Shown: positions 5,012 through 24,909 of the stretch, piece by piece
Position numbering within the stretch: position 1 is the stretch's first letter
Layout of the letters: the number at the start of each line of letters is the position of its first letter
Assembly (NCBI RefSeq): GCF_002904345.1
Contig: NZ_PEIH01000003.1
Location: forward strand, 1-64,000
DNA from: Bacteroidetes bacterium endosymbiont of Geopemphigus sp.
Lineage (GTDB): Bacteria > Bacteroidota > Bacteroidia > Flavobacteriales > Blattabacteriaceae
DNA: 64,000 nt
Reading direction: 5' to 3'
Position numbers and translations under genes: made by a program
Notes under the pieces: model-generated
What the model was told of the DNA's origin: nothing
Databases searched by the model: none
What the model saw: the letters and a program-made list of their open reading frames with translations, nothing else

Positions 5012-5767
5012 ATGATCACTAAATCCCAAAAACAACTTATAAAATCGCTCAGACATAAAAAATATAGGGAGCTCAATGGCTTATTTGTTATAGAAGGGCT
5101 TAAGTGCGTTCAAGAGGCGATTAAAAATGATCTTCCTCTCACACAGATTTTTTGTACGGATAAATTTTTCGATTACTTCAAAAAACAAACTGAACTTACT
5201 GTTTTTATCAGCGAAAAAGAAATGGAGCAGATTAGCTTTCTGACGCATTTTTCGGGCGCTCTCGCGCTTTGTCGTTTGTCGGACTCCCTACCTATTCCGA
5301 TTTCGGGCGAACCAAAGCATTGGAATTTAGTACTTGATGAAATCTCAGATCCCGGCAATCTTGGAAGTATTCTTCGACTTGCCGACTGGTTTGCTCTGCC
5401 TACTCTGTGGATTTCGAAAAATACAGTCGATGTTTACAATCCTAAAGTTATCCAATCTTCTATGGGTTCTTTTTCACGTGTGCGAGTTTTTTACACCGAT
5501 TTAGATAAGGTTTTGAGTCAAACTCATTTGCCTATTTGGGGGGCCTCTTTAGAAGGAGATAATATTTACCACCAGTCTTTTCCTGAGTCGGGTTGGCTCA
5601 TTATGGGCAATGAGTCTCGCGGTATTTCTCCAGGTCTGCAGAGGTATATTTCCAAAAGGGTAAGCATTCCCAGGTTTCATCCGAAATCGACTGTTGAGAG
5701 CTTGAACGTCGCCATGGCTACATCTGTATTTCTAAGTGAACTTCGTCGCTGTATTTTTACAAGATAA
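5012..5767 (+). CDS. TrmH/SpoU family RNA 2'-O-methyltransferase
   Basis: This SPOUT-class methyltransferase would transfer a methyl group from S-adenosylmethionine to a ribose 2'-OH of rRNA or tRNA. The three SpoU motifs are present: DEISDPGNLGSILRLADWF, NPKVIQSSMGSFSRV, and the C-terminal knot MGNESRGISPG followed by VESLNVAMATSVFLSE. An N-terminal substrate-binding region (FVIEGLKCVQEA) precedes the catalytic part. The frame opens at 4952, but the ATG at 5012 starts the conserved part (MITKSQKQLIKSL) and gives 251 residues, normal for the family. Whether it acts like RlmB or on tRNA cannot be told from sequence. Confidence 0.9.
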   Translation: MITKSQKQLIKSLRHKKYRELNGLFVIEGLKCVQEAIKNDLPLTQIFCTDKFFDYFKKQTELTVFISEKEMEQISFLTHFSGALALCRLSDSLPIPISGEPKHWNLVLDEISDPGNLGSILRLADWFALPTLWISKNTVDVYNPKVIQSSMGSFSRVRVFYTDLDKVLSQTHLPIWGASLEGDNIYHQSFPESGWLIMGNESRGISPGLQRYISKRVSIPRFHPKSTVESLNVAMATSVFLSELRRCIFTR

Positions 5768-20532: not shown

Positions 20533-20660
20533 CGAAAGACATGATGAGGAGCCAAAGATTTACAGATCCCGAACTTTTTATTTATTTATTTTACTTTATT
20601 GCGATGAAAATTTGGATTTCCCCGCTTTCTTTGTTTATTTTGCACTGGAAAGTCACAGCC

Positions 20661-20671
20661 CCTATGGGCTA
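20661..20671 (+). repeat. tRNA-Glu 3'-end stub upstream of rpsT copy 1
   Basis: The 11 bases, with the adjoining CC, match the T-stem and acceptor 3' end of the tRNA-Glu at 20972-21043. The following CGGAACAGGATTAAAATC is the same DNA that follows that tRNA before the second rpsT copy. No tRNA body precedes it. It marks the left edge of the tandem duplication. Confidence 0.7.
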
Positions 20672-20694
20672 CGGAACAGGATTAAAATCATTTA

Positions 20695-20967
20695 ATGGCA
20701 AACCATGCATCAGCGATAAAGAGGCTACGCCAGGACAAAGAACGTCGCTTGCGTAACCGCTATGATCACAAAAGCGCTCGAACCGCTTTAAAACAATTTC
20801 GTCAGGAACTGAGCAAAGCTCAGGAAGAGACAGAAAAAAAGGCTCTCATGGCAAATCAAGGAGTTTTAAGTTCGAAGCTTGACAAATTGGCTAAGAAAAA
20901 CATCATCCATAAGAACAAAGCCGCCCATCTAAAGAGTCGTCTGGCTCGTGCTATAGCTTCGATATAA
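20695..20967 (+). CDS. rpsT: 30S ribosomal protein S20 (intact copy)
   Basis: The 90-residue basic protein begins MANHASAIKRLRQDKERRLR and ends in KSRLARAIASI, as in S20, which binds 16S rRNA. The frame is intact. A tRNA-Glu gene starts five bases after the stop codon. A second, damaged copy of the same gene and tRNA follows immediately. This copy must be the functional one because the second has a frameshift and loses conserved Arg residues. Confidence 0.93.
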   Translation: MANHASAIKRLRQDKERRLRNRYDHKSARTALKQFRQELSKAQEETEKKALMANQGVLSSKLDKLAKKNIIHKNKAAHLKSRLARAIASI

Positions 20968-20971
20968 AAGC

Positions 20972-21043
20972 GGCCCATTCGTCTATCGGTTAGGACATCA
21001 GGTTTTCATCCTGAAAAGAGGGGTTCGATTCCCCTATGGGCTA
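20972..21043 (+). tRNA. tRNA-Glu (anticodon TTC)
   Basis: The 72-nt sequence folds as a standard tRNA. The acceptor arms GGCCCAT and ATGGGCT pair with a G-U first pair. The D-arm contains CGGTTAGGA, the anticodon loop is TTTTCAT, and the T-arm GGGGTTCGATTCCCC is perfect. CCA is not encoded, which fits the CCA-adding enzyme gene in this window. It lies directly downstream of rpsT and is probably cotranscribed with it. Confidence 0.95.
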
Positions 21044-21066
21044 CGGAACAGGATTAAAATCATTTA

Positions 21067-21339
21067 ATGGCAAACCATGCATCAGCGATAAAGAGGCTAC
21101 GCCAGGACGAAGAATGTCGCTTGTGTAACCGCTATGATCACAAAAGCGCTCGAACCGCTTTAAAACAATTTCGTCAGGAACTGAGCAAAGCTCAGGAAGA
21201 GACAGAAAAAAAAGGCTCTCATGGCAAATCAAGGAGTTTTAAGTTCGAAGCTTGACAAATTGGCTAAGAAAAACATCATCCATAAGAACAAAGCCGCCCA
21301 TCTAAAGAGTCGTCTGGCTCGTGCTATAGCTTCGATATA
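21067..21339 (+). pseudogene. Second rpsT copy, frameshifted
   Basis: This is a near-identical copy of the 20695-20967 gene at a spacing of 372-373 bp. Compared with copy 1 it has three nonsynonymous changes close together (Lys to Glu and two Arg to Cys, giving RQDEECRLCNR) and one extra A in the poly-A run near 21210. The insertion shifts the frame and ends the product after 62 codons. It is an inactive duplicate. Confidence 0.92.
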
Positions 21340-21344
21340 AAAGC

Positions 21345-21415
21345 GGCCCATTCGTCTATCGCTTAGGACATCAGGTTTTCATCCTGAAAAGAGGGGTTGG
21401 ATGCCCTATGGGCTA
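21345..21415 (+). pseudogene. Second tRNA-Glu copy, damaged
   Basis: It matches the 20972-21043 tRNA, including acceptor stem and TTC anticodon, but differs in the D-loop (CGG to CGC) and in the T-arm, where TTCGATTCCCC has become TTGGATGCCC with one base deleted. The T-stem can no longer pair properly, so the copy is probably not a working tRNA. Confidence 0.8.
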
Positions 21416-21900: not shown

Positions 21901-23558
21901 TCTTTACAGATATGCTCATACCCACAAGAAAATGTGTTCCGGCTTGTGGAAAATAGTAAGCTTTTTTAGAAAAATAACCATTGTTCTCGTAGGGTGTATT
22001 AAGTAAGTTTTTGATTTGTAAATAGCTTTCTATTTTTCTGGTTTTTTTTAAAAAATGTCATACTTCATAAAAATATCATGCAGTAAGAAAGCTTTTAGAT
22101 TTGCCTCGGGTCGATTTTCGTTGGTCATATTTTGCCTTCCTGTATATTTTGATTGCAAAGATGACTTCAATTTTTTTAAACATCTGCCAGAAGATACTAT
22201 TAAAGGCTATAACGGAAGGAGGGATAAGAAATATCGCTTATATCCAAATAGCCTAAATTTCCATCAGGCCTGCTTGTATAATAAGCTTAATTTTTATTGA
22301 TAATTAGCGGGATGTTACTTTGCCATGAACAGTTGGCCGTGGCATTGTATTTAGAATATAATTCTAGTCCCAGACGATAGCTTTTGCCGGAGTTTTTTTG
22401 AATGGGCACTCCGCTTATATATACCGCTCCACTTAAGACCATTTGGTCTTTATACAACATATAATAAGTGTTTGTTTGCCATGACCATTTGTTGTTTTTG
22501 TATTCTTAACCCAGTTCAAAATCATAAAGACGTTCTGTTTTAGATTTATTAATTTTATAATGATCATCTCTTTGAGGCTTGCGTTACGCTAAAGCGTAAG
22601 ATATAGAGGCTTTATGTTGCTGAACAGATAGCTCAGACCTGTCTTGGAGTTGAGAAAACAAAATCGCTCGAAAATATTTATCAGGCCATAGCCTGCATGG
22701 GGAATATGTAGGTTATCGATATCAAATGCTTTGTAATTTATATACCTATATTATATATCTGCAAAACCGTAGATTTGCTTTGTAAAGCCATAAGTGACTT
22801 TCGTATAAGTTAAAAATTCTTCTTTTTTCCTATGGAAAGATAGTATTTTTTGTTATTAATCTGAATCAGAGGCAAATCGAACCAAAATGATCTTTTCAAA
22901 ATGATTTCCTGTATACTGATTATAGGCTGTGCTAAATTGTATTTTCCAAAATTCTTTTTTGTAAAGCCAGTCTTTCTCTGTTTCTGTTATAAAATGAATA
23001 ACTCGCTCCAAAAGCTCCCGTTCCGTTGGTGAAAATTCCTGATCTGCTTTAAATCTGTACGTTATGCACCGAAGAAGAAAGATCCGGCATATTGTCCTAA
23101 AACACTCCCTGAGATTCACTATCATTTACAGGAATTCCGTTGATGGTCACGTTCCAGCTATTGAATTTTTGAAAATCTTTTTAGGAGATATAGATTTTGG
23201 CCGTAGGAAATCGATCTCCGATGCGCACTCCGGTAATAATAACCTCATCGAGTGGTTTTTCTATTTTAAATAGAAACTCAATTGTACTTTCTTTTTTTTC
23301 TACAAAAATTTTACGAACTTGTTCACTATAGTTGTACTTAACTGATAGTATAGTTGACCCTTATTTAAAGAATCGATAATAGATAGCCCCTGAGCGTCAC
23401 CTTTTAAAACGATGTGTCCATCTACACCGACCGACGCGCCTTGCAGTGGCGTTCCATTTTGATCATTCACGCTACCCTGTAGAGGGTTTTATTCATTTAA
23501 GGATGGATTTGAGAAAAAAATAAAAGAAAATCGAAAAAAGAAGGACACATATACTCAT
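21887..23558 (-). pseudogene. TonB-dependent receptor remnant, probably for thiamine
   Basis: The minus strand gives a signal-like start at 23558, then a carboxypeptidase-regulatory-like segment (GSVNDQNGTPLQGASVGVDG), plug motifs PVNDSESQGVF, MPDLSSSVHNVQI and GIFTNGTGAFGAS, barrel segments NNKWSWQTNTYYMLYKDQMV and SGKSYRLGLELYSKYNATA, and the C-terminal strands RKIESYLQIKNLLNTPYENN and GTHFLVGMSISVKI. Stops and frameshifts occur throughout. The order is that of a full receptor with large internal losses. The broken TPP riboswitch in its leader suggests it was a thiamine-regulated receptor. The last codons overlap the end of the neighbouring plus-strand gene. Confidence 0.8.
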
Positions 23559-23619
23559 GTTTAAAGAAATTAAACACGAATAAAAGGGTCGTTTCCGCTT
23601 ATATTAATTAGCGCATAAA

Positions 23620-23687
23620 CTCCCCCTTCCCAGGTTCTATGGGTTATAATCTCTCAGCCTGTTTTTACACGGGCTCCCTCGGAGATG
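23620..23687 (-). promoter_or_regulatory. Degenerate TPP (THI) riboswitch
   Basis: On the minus strand the sequence holds the P2/P3 part of the THI element: GGGAGCCCG, a short hairpin, CAGGCTGAGAG, then AACCCATAGAACCTG, the two most conserved blocks (CTGAGA and ACCC...GAACCTG). The expected P4/P5 arm with its GG-TAAT-CC pyrophosphate-binding loop is missing: the sequence goes directly to GGAAGGGGGAG, which can still close the P1 helix with CTCC at the 5' side. It lies about 60 bp upstream of the dead receptor on the same strand. It is probably inactive. Confidence 0.7.
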
Positions 23688-24268
23688 TGTGCAATAGATC
23701 TTTTTATTAAATACGAAAAATATTATGTTAAAATGAAAAACCAAAGCGAAATTTCAAACCCCTTTAAAGTCAAAAAACTTAACAAAGTTGCTTGTGTTTT
23801 CTTCAAATATTTGCGCTATGTATTGGCCAAATTTTATTATACAGAACTTAGGTCTTATTATTTATCGAAAGCTTTTGAGCGCCGTTTATTTGCATATTAT
23901 AGAAAATACACTGTACGAATTTTCTAAAAATATATAAACTCATAATTTTTTATTTGATCTCCGGCGCAAAAAAAAGAATGAACTTAATAAGTCTTTTTAT
24001 CTAAAAATCTTTAATCCTATAGAAAAATTAATTTTTTTAAACAGAGATTTATTTCATCGACTTAGGTAAAATTTATAGCAGGGATTATTTTATATTTTAC
24101 CTGATAAAAAAGCCCTCTTTCTCTGACGTATAGATGTAGTATTTCAGGGAGAAATCCTTTTGTTTTTAGCCTAAAGAACCAAGAGATTATCCCAGGATGT
24201 TTTTTTTATTTGTAGATAATGAATCGCCTTTAATCTATTAGTCTTTAAAATGTAAGTTACTAGGAATG
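23688..24268. other. AT-rich stretch without recognisable gene
   Basis: An 80-codon frame at 23685-23927 has no recognisable features and lies in low-complexity AT-rich DNA. I see no other gene or repeat here. Confidence 0.4.
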
Positions 24269-24298: not shown

Positions 24299-24909
24299 TA
24301 AAAGCCATTTTCAAACCTAAAATTACCATTACAGTGCCGCTTACATAGTGTAGGATTTTTTACACGAGTATTTTTGCAGGCTTATTCCAAAGGTTCCGGA
24401 AAAACGGCCAATCTAAAACGGATCATAGCGTCCCTAGCAAGACTAATATTCCACTTAAATAATAAAAAGCTCCCTTGTCATGCGAACTTTAGGGATAAAT
24501 GAATTGTGGCAAAAAAACATAAAGGTAATGATGGCTTTAGGGTTAAATACGTTCACTAAAATGCCTTGCCAAAAAAGGATTTGGTTTTTTTTGCTCGAGG
24601 ACCTAATTTTTAAAAAATGTTTCGGACATTTTAATAAAGCGTTTAGTTCGATATATATATCAAGTAAGCTGCCCCAATATATTTAACAATTAAATAAAGG
24701 TTCTTTGAGGTTTATAAAAGACTCGAAAGACCAAAGGTCGTTAATAGACTATGAATCCATAATCCTAAAGCAACACCCAAGACAGATGATATGCCGATTT
24801 TTCCTTGTTCAATTCCCGAATTAATCACATAGACAAAGTCAGGGTCGGGTGAAATTATTAGTAGAAGCGATGAAATCAGAAAAAGTGATAAATCAGTGAT
24901 ATTTTCCAT
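24288..24909 (-). pseudogene. LysE/RhtB family amino-acid exporter remnant
   Basis: The first 65 codons (24712-24909) read as the N-terminus of a LysE-family exporter: FLISSLLLIISPDPDFVYVI corresponds to the conserved PGPD region with Gly replaced by Asp, followed by GISSVLGVALGLWIHSLL. After frameshifts one finds ILVNVFNPKAIITFMFF (the conserved NPK motif) and the last helix VSGTVMVILGLKMAFKND before a stop at 24288. Family length and order fit, but the frame is broken at least three times. Confidence 0.75.

Follow-up and report, generated by a model that had tools for sequence, protein, structure and literature searches.

The minus strand of the window, the 64-kb stretch of DNA analyzed here, carries the remains of a TPP riboswitch and, just downstream, those of a gene for a TonB-dependent outer-membrane receptor. 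The observation of a broken TPP riboswitch attached to a dead receptor, made in an earlier note on this DNA, is confirmed. The two remnants (Table 1) are very probably the fossil of a single transcription unit in which a TPP riboswitch preceded a TonB-type thiamine receptor, in an eroding genome that seems to have lost TonB uptake and has kept its use of thiamine. The genome is probably that of a symbiont. No new mechanism is shown, and the locus is a new instance of a known phenomenon.

Table 1. Positions of the riboswitch and receptor remnants in the window
Feature	Position	Strand	Basis and condition
TPP riboswitch aptamer remnant	23610..23690	minus	RF00059 25.1 bits, best in genome; local identity to relatives; P4/P5 hairpin deleted
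P4/P5 arm junction	23625..23637	minus	GAACCTG (23637-23631) abuts GGAAGG (23630-23625) directly
Thiamine-linked TonB-dependent outer-membrane receptor pseudogene (OMthi type)	about 21902..23482	minus	stops, at least three frame changes, two internal deletions
Receptor piece 1 (plug, NVTINGIPVNDSESQG...)	23001..23153	minus	two internal stops; matches to 19 receptor queries
Receptor piece 3 (beta-barrel)	22290..22622	minus	two internal stops; overlaps sub-threshold PF00593 match
Receptor C-terminal piece	21902..22054	minus	matches to relatives' receptors; translation

The aptamer remnant

In a search run at a permissive threshold, positions 1-105 of the Rfam TPP model RF00059 are covered at 23690-23610 of the minus strand. 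The score of 25.1 bits corresponds to an E value of 0.012 when 701 bases are compared with 4227 Rfam families, and to one of 0.0055 when the single family is compared with the whole genome (1,317,719 bases, or 1.32 Mb, in 5 contigs and 92% complete). This was the top match in the genome scan, ahead by 10 bits; the next two scored 14.7 bits (C4:590584) and 14.4 bits (C4:480159) and were regarded as chance matches. The score lies below the RF00059 gathering score of 54.3 bits, and the element was missing from a gathering-threshold Rfam scan of the 64-kb window. Of the 20 elements that were extended in relatives (see below), all of them receptor-linked, 18 also fall below this cut-off, at 34.3-50.9 bits. 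By model score alone, the relic is marginal. The earlier note had proposed an RF00059 search as a check on its reading, and what that search returns is a weak match under the cut-off. Compared with the range of 23558-23687 given in the note, the element proper is confined to the coordinates in Table 1, with the remainder of that range being leader.

The core blocks CTGAGA, ACCC and GAACCTG are intact, and the RF00059 alignment retains GGCTGAGA, ACCC and GAACC. Missing is the P4/P5 arm with the pyrophosphate-sensing L5 loop: 22 positions of the RF00059 model are reduced to 2 bases, as are 16 positions of a model of the receptor-linked subfamily. The available excerpts of PMC4775224 describe this arm as the part of the TPP aptamer that contacts the pyrophosphate. 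The alignment thus agrees with the earlier note, which had read CTGAGA and ACCC...GAACCTG on the minus strand as kept and the P4/P5 arm as gone. The GGGGTGC block shows two changes in the alignments to both models, and was placed one base off in one further alignment. Between CTGAGA and ACCC the relic has 3 bases more than the spacing that all 18 relatives share; P2 and the core spacing both carry lesions. In a manual count on the alignments, about 24 of the 28 positions that are invariant in 18 relatives are retained, with two of the others altered in GGGGTGC and two deleted together with L5. The relic shares with the TPP riboswitch (THI element, RF00059) its three core blocks and its position upstream of a thiamine-linked receptor, but differs in the missing arm and L5, the altered GGGGTGC, the 3 extra bases and the sub-cut-off score.

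It is extremely unlikely that the RF00059 match is a chance resemblance or stems from a different RNA. The score is under the cut-off, and a covariance model of the subfamily, built from 18 receptor-linked relatives, gave the relic 15.3 bits (E 0.037), a score that presumed chance matches also attain. The same model scored 17.3 bits antisense within the gene for thiamine pyrophosphokinase (TPK; L074) and 16.6 bits at a locus (L026) that we take to be rpoA, and for this reason the model was dropped as support. Its alignment comprised 18 of the 20 extended elements, with those of G053 and G045 omitted as near-duplicates of those of G038 and G058. Against chance stands the sequence itself. At best, the 415-base stretch ahead of the receptor (23900-23486) matches the elements of the 18 relatives locally with a score of 22.0, in an alignment of 28 identical bases that runs from GGCT to ACCCATAGAACCTGGG and has two short gaps. 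The maximum over 500 dinucleotide shuffles was 16.0, with none reaching the score of the relic, and among 616 window tiles taken from both strands only the relic tile, at the top, and its overlapping neighbor (16.5) exceeded 14.5. To this are added the 10-bit lead in the genome and the location just ahead of a receptor relic whose family adjoins TPP elements in 21 of 21 matching genomes. The relic RNA folds no better than its own shuffles (z 0.17), and we identify it by sequence identity and position, not by structure score.

The receptor pseudogene and its family

Behind the aptamer, the translation of the receptor relic is interrupted by stops in every frame. Pieces of the window from 23153 to 21902 match the receptors of relatives with a combined E value down to 2e-37, and the frame shifts between pieces. 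Piece 1 is 48-69% identical to 16 of the 19 receptor queries and 29-30% identical to two (L050 and L051), with 32% identity over a longer stretch to the L038 receptor. In comparison with the receptor of G053, the relic lacks about 38 residues ahead of NVTINGIP and about 206 behind piece 1. Pfam and NCBIfam searches of the short receptor pieces gave weak barrel matches only, and no open frame encoding both plug and barrel remains in the relic. The stops, frame changes and deletions bear out the frameshifted TonB receptor that had been noted behind the riboswitch.

A search of 23 same-order genomes with RF00059 yielded 30 matches at an E value of 1 or better. We extended 20 of these, chosen after viewing what follows them, and all 20 precede a TonB receptor of one family; the 10 unextended matches comprise the strongest six, in some cases lying ahead of thiS/thiC-like frames, and four weak ones of less than 21 bits. 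The open frame of one receptor (L048) starts inside the aptamer, and this frame was matched by the search with joined pieces. In that search, which scored first-look candidates only (1-10 per genome), the relic pieces were joined with X at the stops and matched 21 of the 23 genomes at an E value of 0.001 or better, with no match at this level in G048 and G049. In every one of the 21 genomes the matches are confined to a single locus that adjoins a TPP element, although the element beside the locus in G039 is weak (20.4 bits). Because the matches are single-locus and TPP-adjacent in 21 genomes, sequence comparison assigns the relic to a thiamine-linked TonB family. The aptamer remnant precedes the relic of a receptor of this TPP-linked family. 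The thiamine link claimed for the receptor in the earlier note is upheld by these matches, and a comparison of receptors across the 23 same-order genomes, in which clustering with receptors of other ligands would have spoken against that link, did not refute it.

In excerpts of PMC5613172, OMthi denotes a TPP-riboswitch-linked TonB-dependent outer-membrane receptor of Bacteroidetes, which in Bacteroides thetaiotaomicron is BT2390. The relic corresponds to the OMthi of those excerpts by role and linkage, with a presumed function in the outer-membrane step of thiamine uptake and with the link to BT2390 running through the same-order relatives. It differs in being a pseudogene, damaged by stops, changes of frame and deletions.

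Conceivably, the shortened RNA still works without its arm, either as an aptamer or regulatory leader for thiamine or the pyrimidine moiety of thiamine, or as a control of some small product that remains. Its intact CTGAGA, ACCC and GAACCTG blocks would suit such a role, as would the existence of another arm-less element, in a Micavibrio assembly, ahead of a thiC-like open frame. We nevertheless judge this highly improbable: the gene downstream is dead, GGGGTGC carries two changes, the CTGAGA-ACCC spacing departs from that of all 18 relatives, and the fold is no better than that of shuffles. In a count over 17 of the 19 receptors, omitting the most diverged (L050 and L051), the two well-aligned pieces of the dead gene keep 29 of 35 invariant residues, and all five pieces together, three of them poorly aligned, keep 38 of 54. 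At about 24 of 28, the aptamer has no clear advantage in preservation over the dead gene, and this speaks against selection acting on the aptamer by itself. That selection has maintained the arm-less RNA as a minimal aptamer or leader, one that responds to thiamine or the pyrimidine part and not to TPP, is doubtful to the same high degree; if it were true, the Micavibrio element would be an independent case.

That element was found in a search of the species-genome collection with one fixed, narrow pattern, which returned 13 stretches and is no census. On inspection of the 13 matches, one (L055, 5436-5520, from a Micavibrio metagenome assembly) is a TPP element that lacks the P4/P5 arm and may be either real or the result of an assembly error; it lies before an open frame with a motif that reads like ThiC. 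Ten of the 13 have the arm, some with an altered loop, and L058 and L059 look like chance matches. The Hyphomonas-type TPP elements (L054, L057, L060, L061 and L063), none of which reaches the Rfam cut-off, have GGGGAATGC as compared with mostly GGTAATGC or similar in the relatives of the window element. In Tenacibaculum holothuriorum (L056, about 5484-5512, minus strand), CTGAGA, ACCC, GAACCTG and the arm are kept, with no GGGGTGC in the preceding 60 bases. It may be another TPP element in decay, in this case damaged at the opposite end.

Thiamine use and TonB-type uptake

The genome has an intact TPK (TIGR01378, 126.3 bits against a cut-off of 76.4) with both Pfam domains, an intact PnuC-family transporter, and four matches to TPP-binding enzymes (Transket_pyr) in open frames. 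No match to the ThiC or ThiE families was found in the 92% complete assembly. With TPK, the PnuC-family carrier and the TPP enzymes intact and without ThiC and ThiE, the organism should still need, import and phosphorylate thiamine, and as far as gene content can tell it has not lost its use of thiamine.

The PnuC-family transporter is homologous to a gene upstream of the TPP element in six of the 20 extended loci. Near this homologue lies a gene with what we take to be a NadR-like kinase motif, and the substrate of the PnuC-family protein may for that reason be nicotinamide riboside rather than thiamine. The PnuC-family gene of the present genome (L073, G000:C4:949470-950724) adjoins a gene whose homologue in G044 and G057 lies about 2.2 kb ahead of the TPP element. 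This homology suggests that an ancestral thiamine-receptor neighborhood was split by rearrangement.

Excerpts of PMC5613172 describe a PnuT/TPK salvage route in Bacteroidetes and a TPP-riboswitch-linked operon, pnuT-tnr3, in B. thetaiotaomicron. The present genome resembles the route described there in having a PnuC-family carrier and TPK intact, but differs in that the two genes lie apart from the riboswitch and from each other, and in that the carrier may have the specificity of either PnuC or PnuT.

The other traces of TonB-type uptake genes that were found are broken or lie below threshold. A genome search with PF07715 found one plug, on C1, with two stops, and a search with PF00593 found three barrel traces, all below threshold: two stops interrupt the one in the window relic and four the one on C4, and the third, on C1, has none in its matched stretch. 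The stop-free matched stretch of the last (C1:163625-163885) scores 26.4 against a 27-bit cut-off, and the broken plug lies about 760 bases upstream of it. The plug and barrel piece at C1:162580-163885 (L075) and the barrel piece at C4:595621-596079 (L083) are apparent traces of two further TonB receptors. For ExbD there was only a sub-threshold match of 12.4 bits against a cut-off of 25.4. From the receptor traces and ExbD, the loss seems to be general to TonB-type uptake; since the assembly is 92% complete and in 5 contigs, an intact receptor or ExbD could sit in the missing 8% or so.

The earlier note had seen in the locus a loss of thiamine uptake, possibly because the host supplies thiamine in another form or because other cofactors replaced it. 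Abandonment of the whole of thiamine uptake, made possible by host-supplied TPP or replacement cofactors, would fit the death of both receptor and riboswitch. TPK, too, is missing above its cut-off in 18 of 41 family genomes, which are more reduced, and the family thus includes cases of complete loss. We consider a thiamine-specific loss very unlikely here, as it is contradicted by TPK with both its domains, the intact PnuC-family carrier and the four TPP-enzyme open frames, and as the traces of non-thiamine receptors and ExbD are also affected. The look-up of thi genes, PnuT and TPK elsewhere in the genome, which the note itself had recommended, turned up TPK and the PnuC-family carrier but neither ThiC nor ThiE.

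Erosion of the locus and the family

The history that we favor is that of a fossil transcription unit. An ancestor would have had a TPP riboswitch ahead of the gene for an outer-membrane TonB-dependent thiamine receptor, and, if this switch acted as known TPP riboswitches do, the binding of TPP would have lowered receptor synthesis. Once the lineage had become host-restricted, as we infer, the TonB machinery and its receptors would have been useless. The receptor accumulated stops and deletions as well as changes of frame, and the hairpin that contacts the pyrophosphate was lost from the aptamer; such an arm-less aptamer should no longer sense TPP. Thiamine would now pass the outer membrane by another, non-TonB path and may cross the inner membrane through the PnuC-family carrier, for which it is a putative substrate. 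The retained kinase gene would then provide for the conversion of thiamine into TPP.

Two other features of the window were observed. A tandem duplication (20659-21033 and 21031-21406) with a spacing of 372-373 bases and 98-99% identity includes two copies of tRNA-Glu and a frame that resembles rpsT. This frame is 90 amino acids long in one copy (20695-20967) and 62 in the other (21067-21255), from which it follows that one duplicate is already decaying. Upstream of the relic, at about 24300-24909 on the minus strand, a 65-amino-acid open frame (24712-24909), which we take to resemble the start of a LysE-type exporter, is followed by apparently broken sequence.

Under stricter filters, a scan of 36 same-family genomes of 200-600 kb found no credible TPP element. 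In one of the 36 (G028) there was a match of 20.5 bits, which was set aside as chance and lies inside an apparent rpoA, recognized by a sequence motif. TPK scores above cut-off in 23 of 41 family genomes, namely the present genome and all 22 of the reduced sister genus g9 (600 kb), and is absent at this cut-off in the other 18, which are of 200-300 kb. Genomes that retain TPK but not the riboswitch thus recur in the family, and in the smaller genomes the kinase has subsequently gone as well; the present genome shows an earlier step of this erosion that is still readable.

We found no description of such a relic in this group among the open-licence PMC papers, which were surveyed in part. Going by excerpts of the two papers, pseudogene expression in Sodalis is treated in PMC7067036 and riboswitch loss in yeasts in PMC5997356.

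The locus is a readable intermediate of symbiont genome erosion, ordinary in kind and unusually legible, in which the outer-membrane TonB step and the RNA switch have decayed while the kinase and the PnuC-family carrier persist. TPK without a TPP element in all 22 genomes of g9 and the absence of TPK from the 18 smaller genomes suggest an order of loss that can be tested. A dead riboswitch is not in itself evidence that use of the vitamin has been lost.
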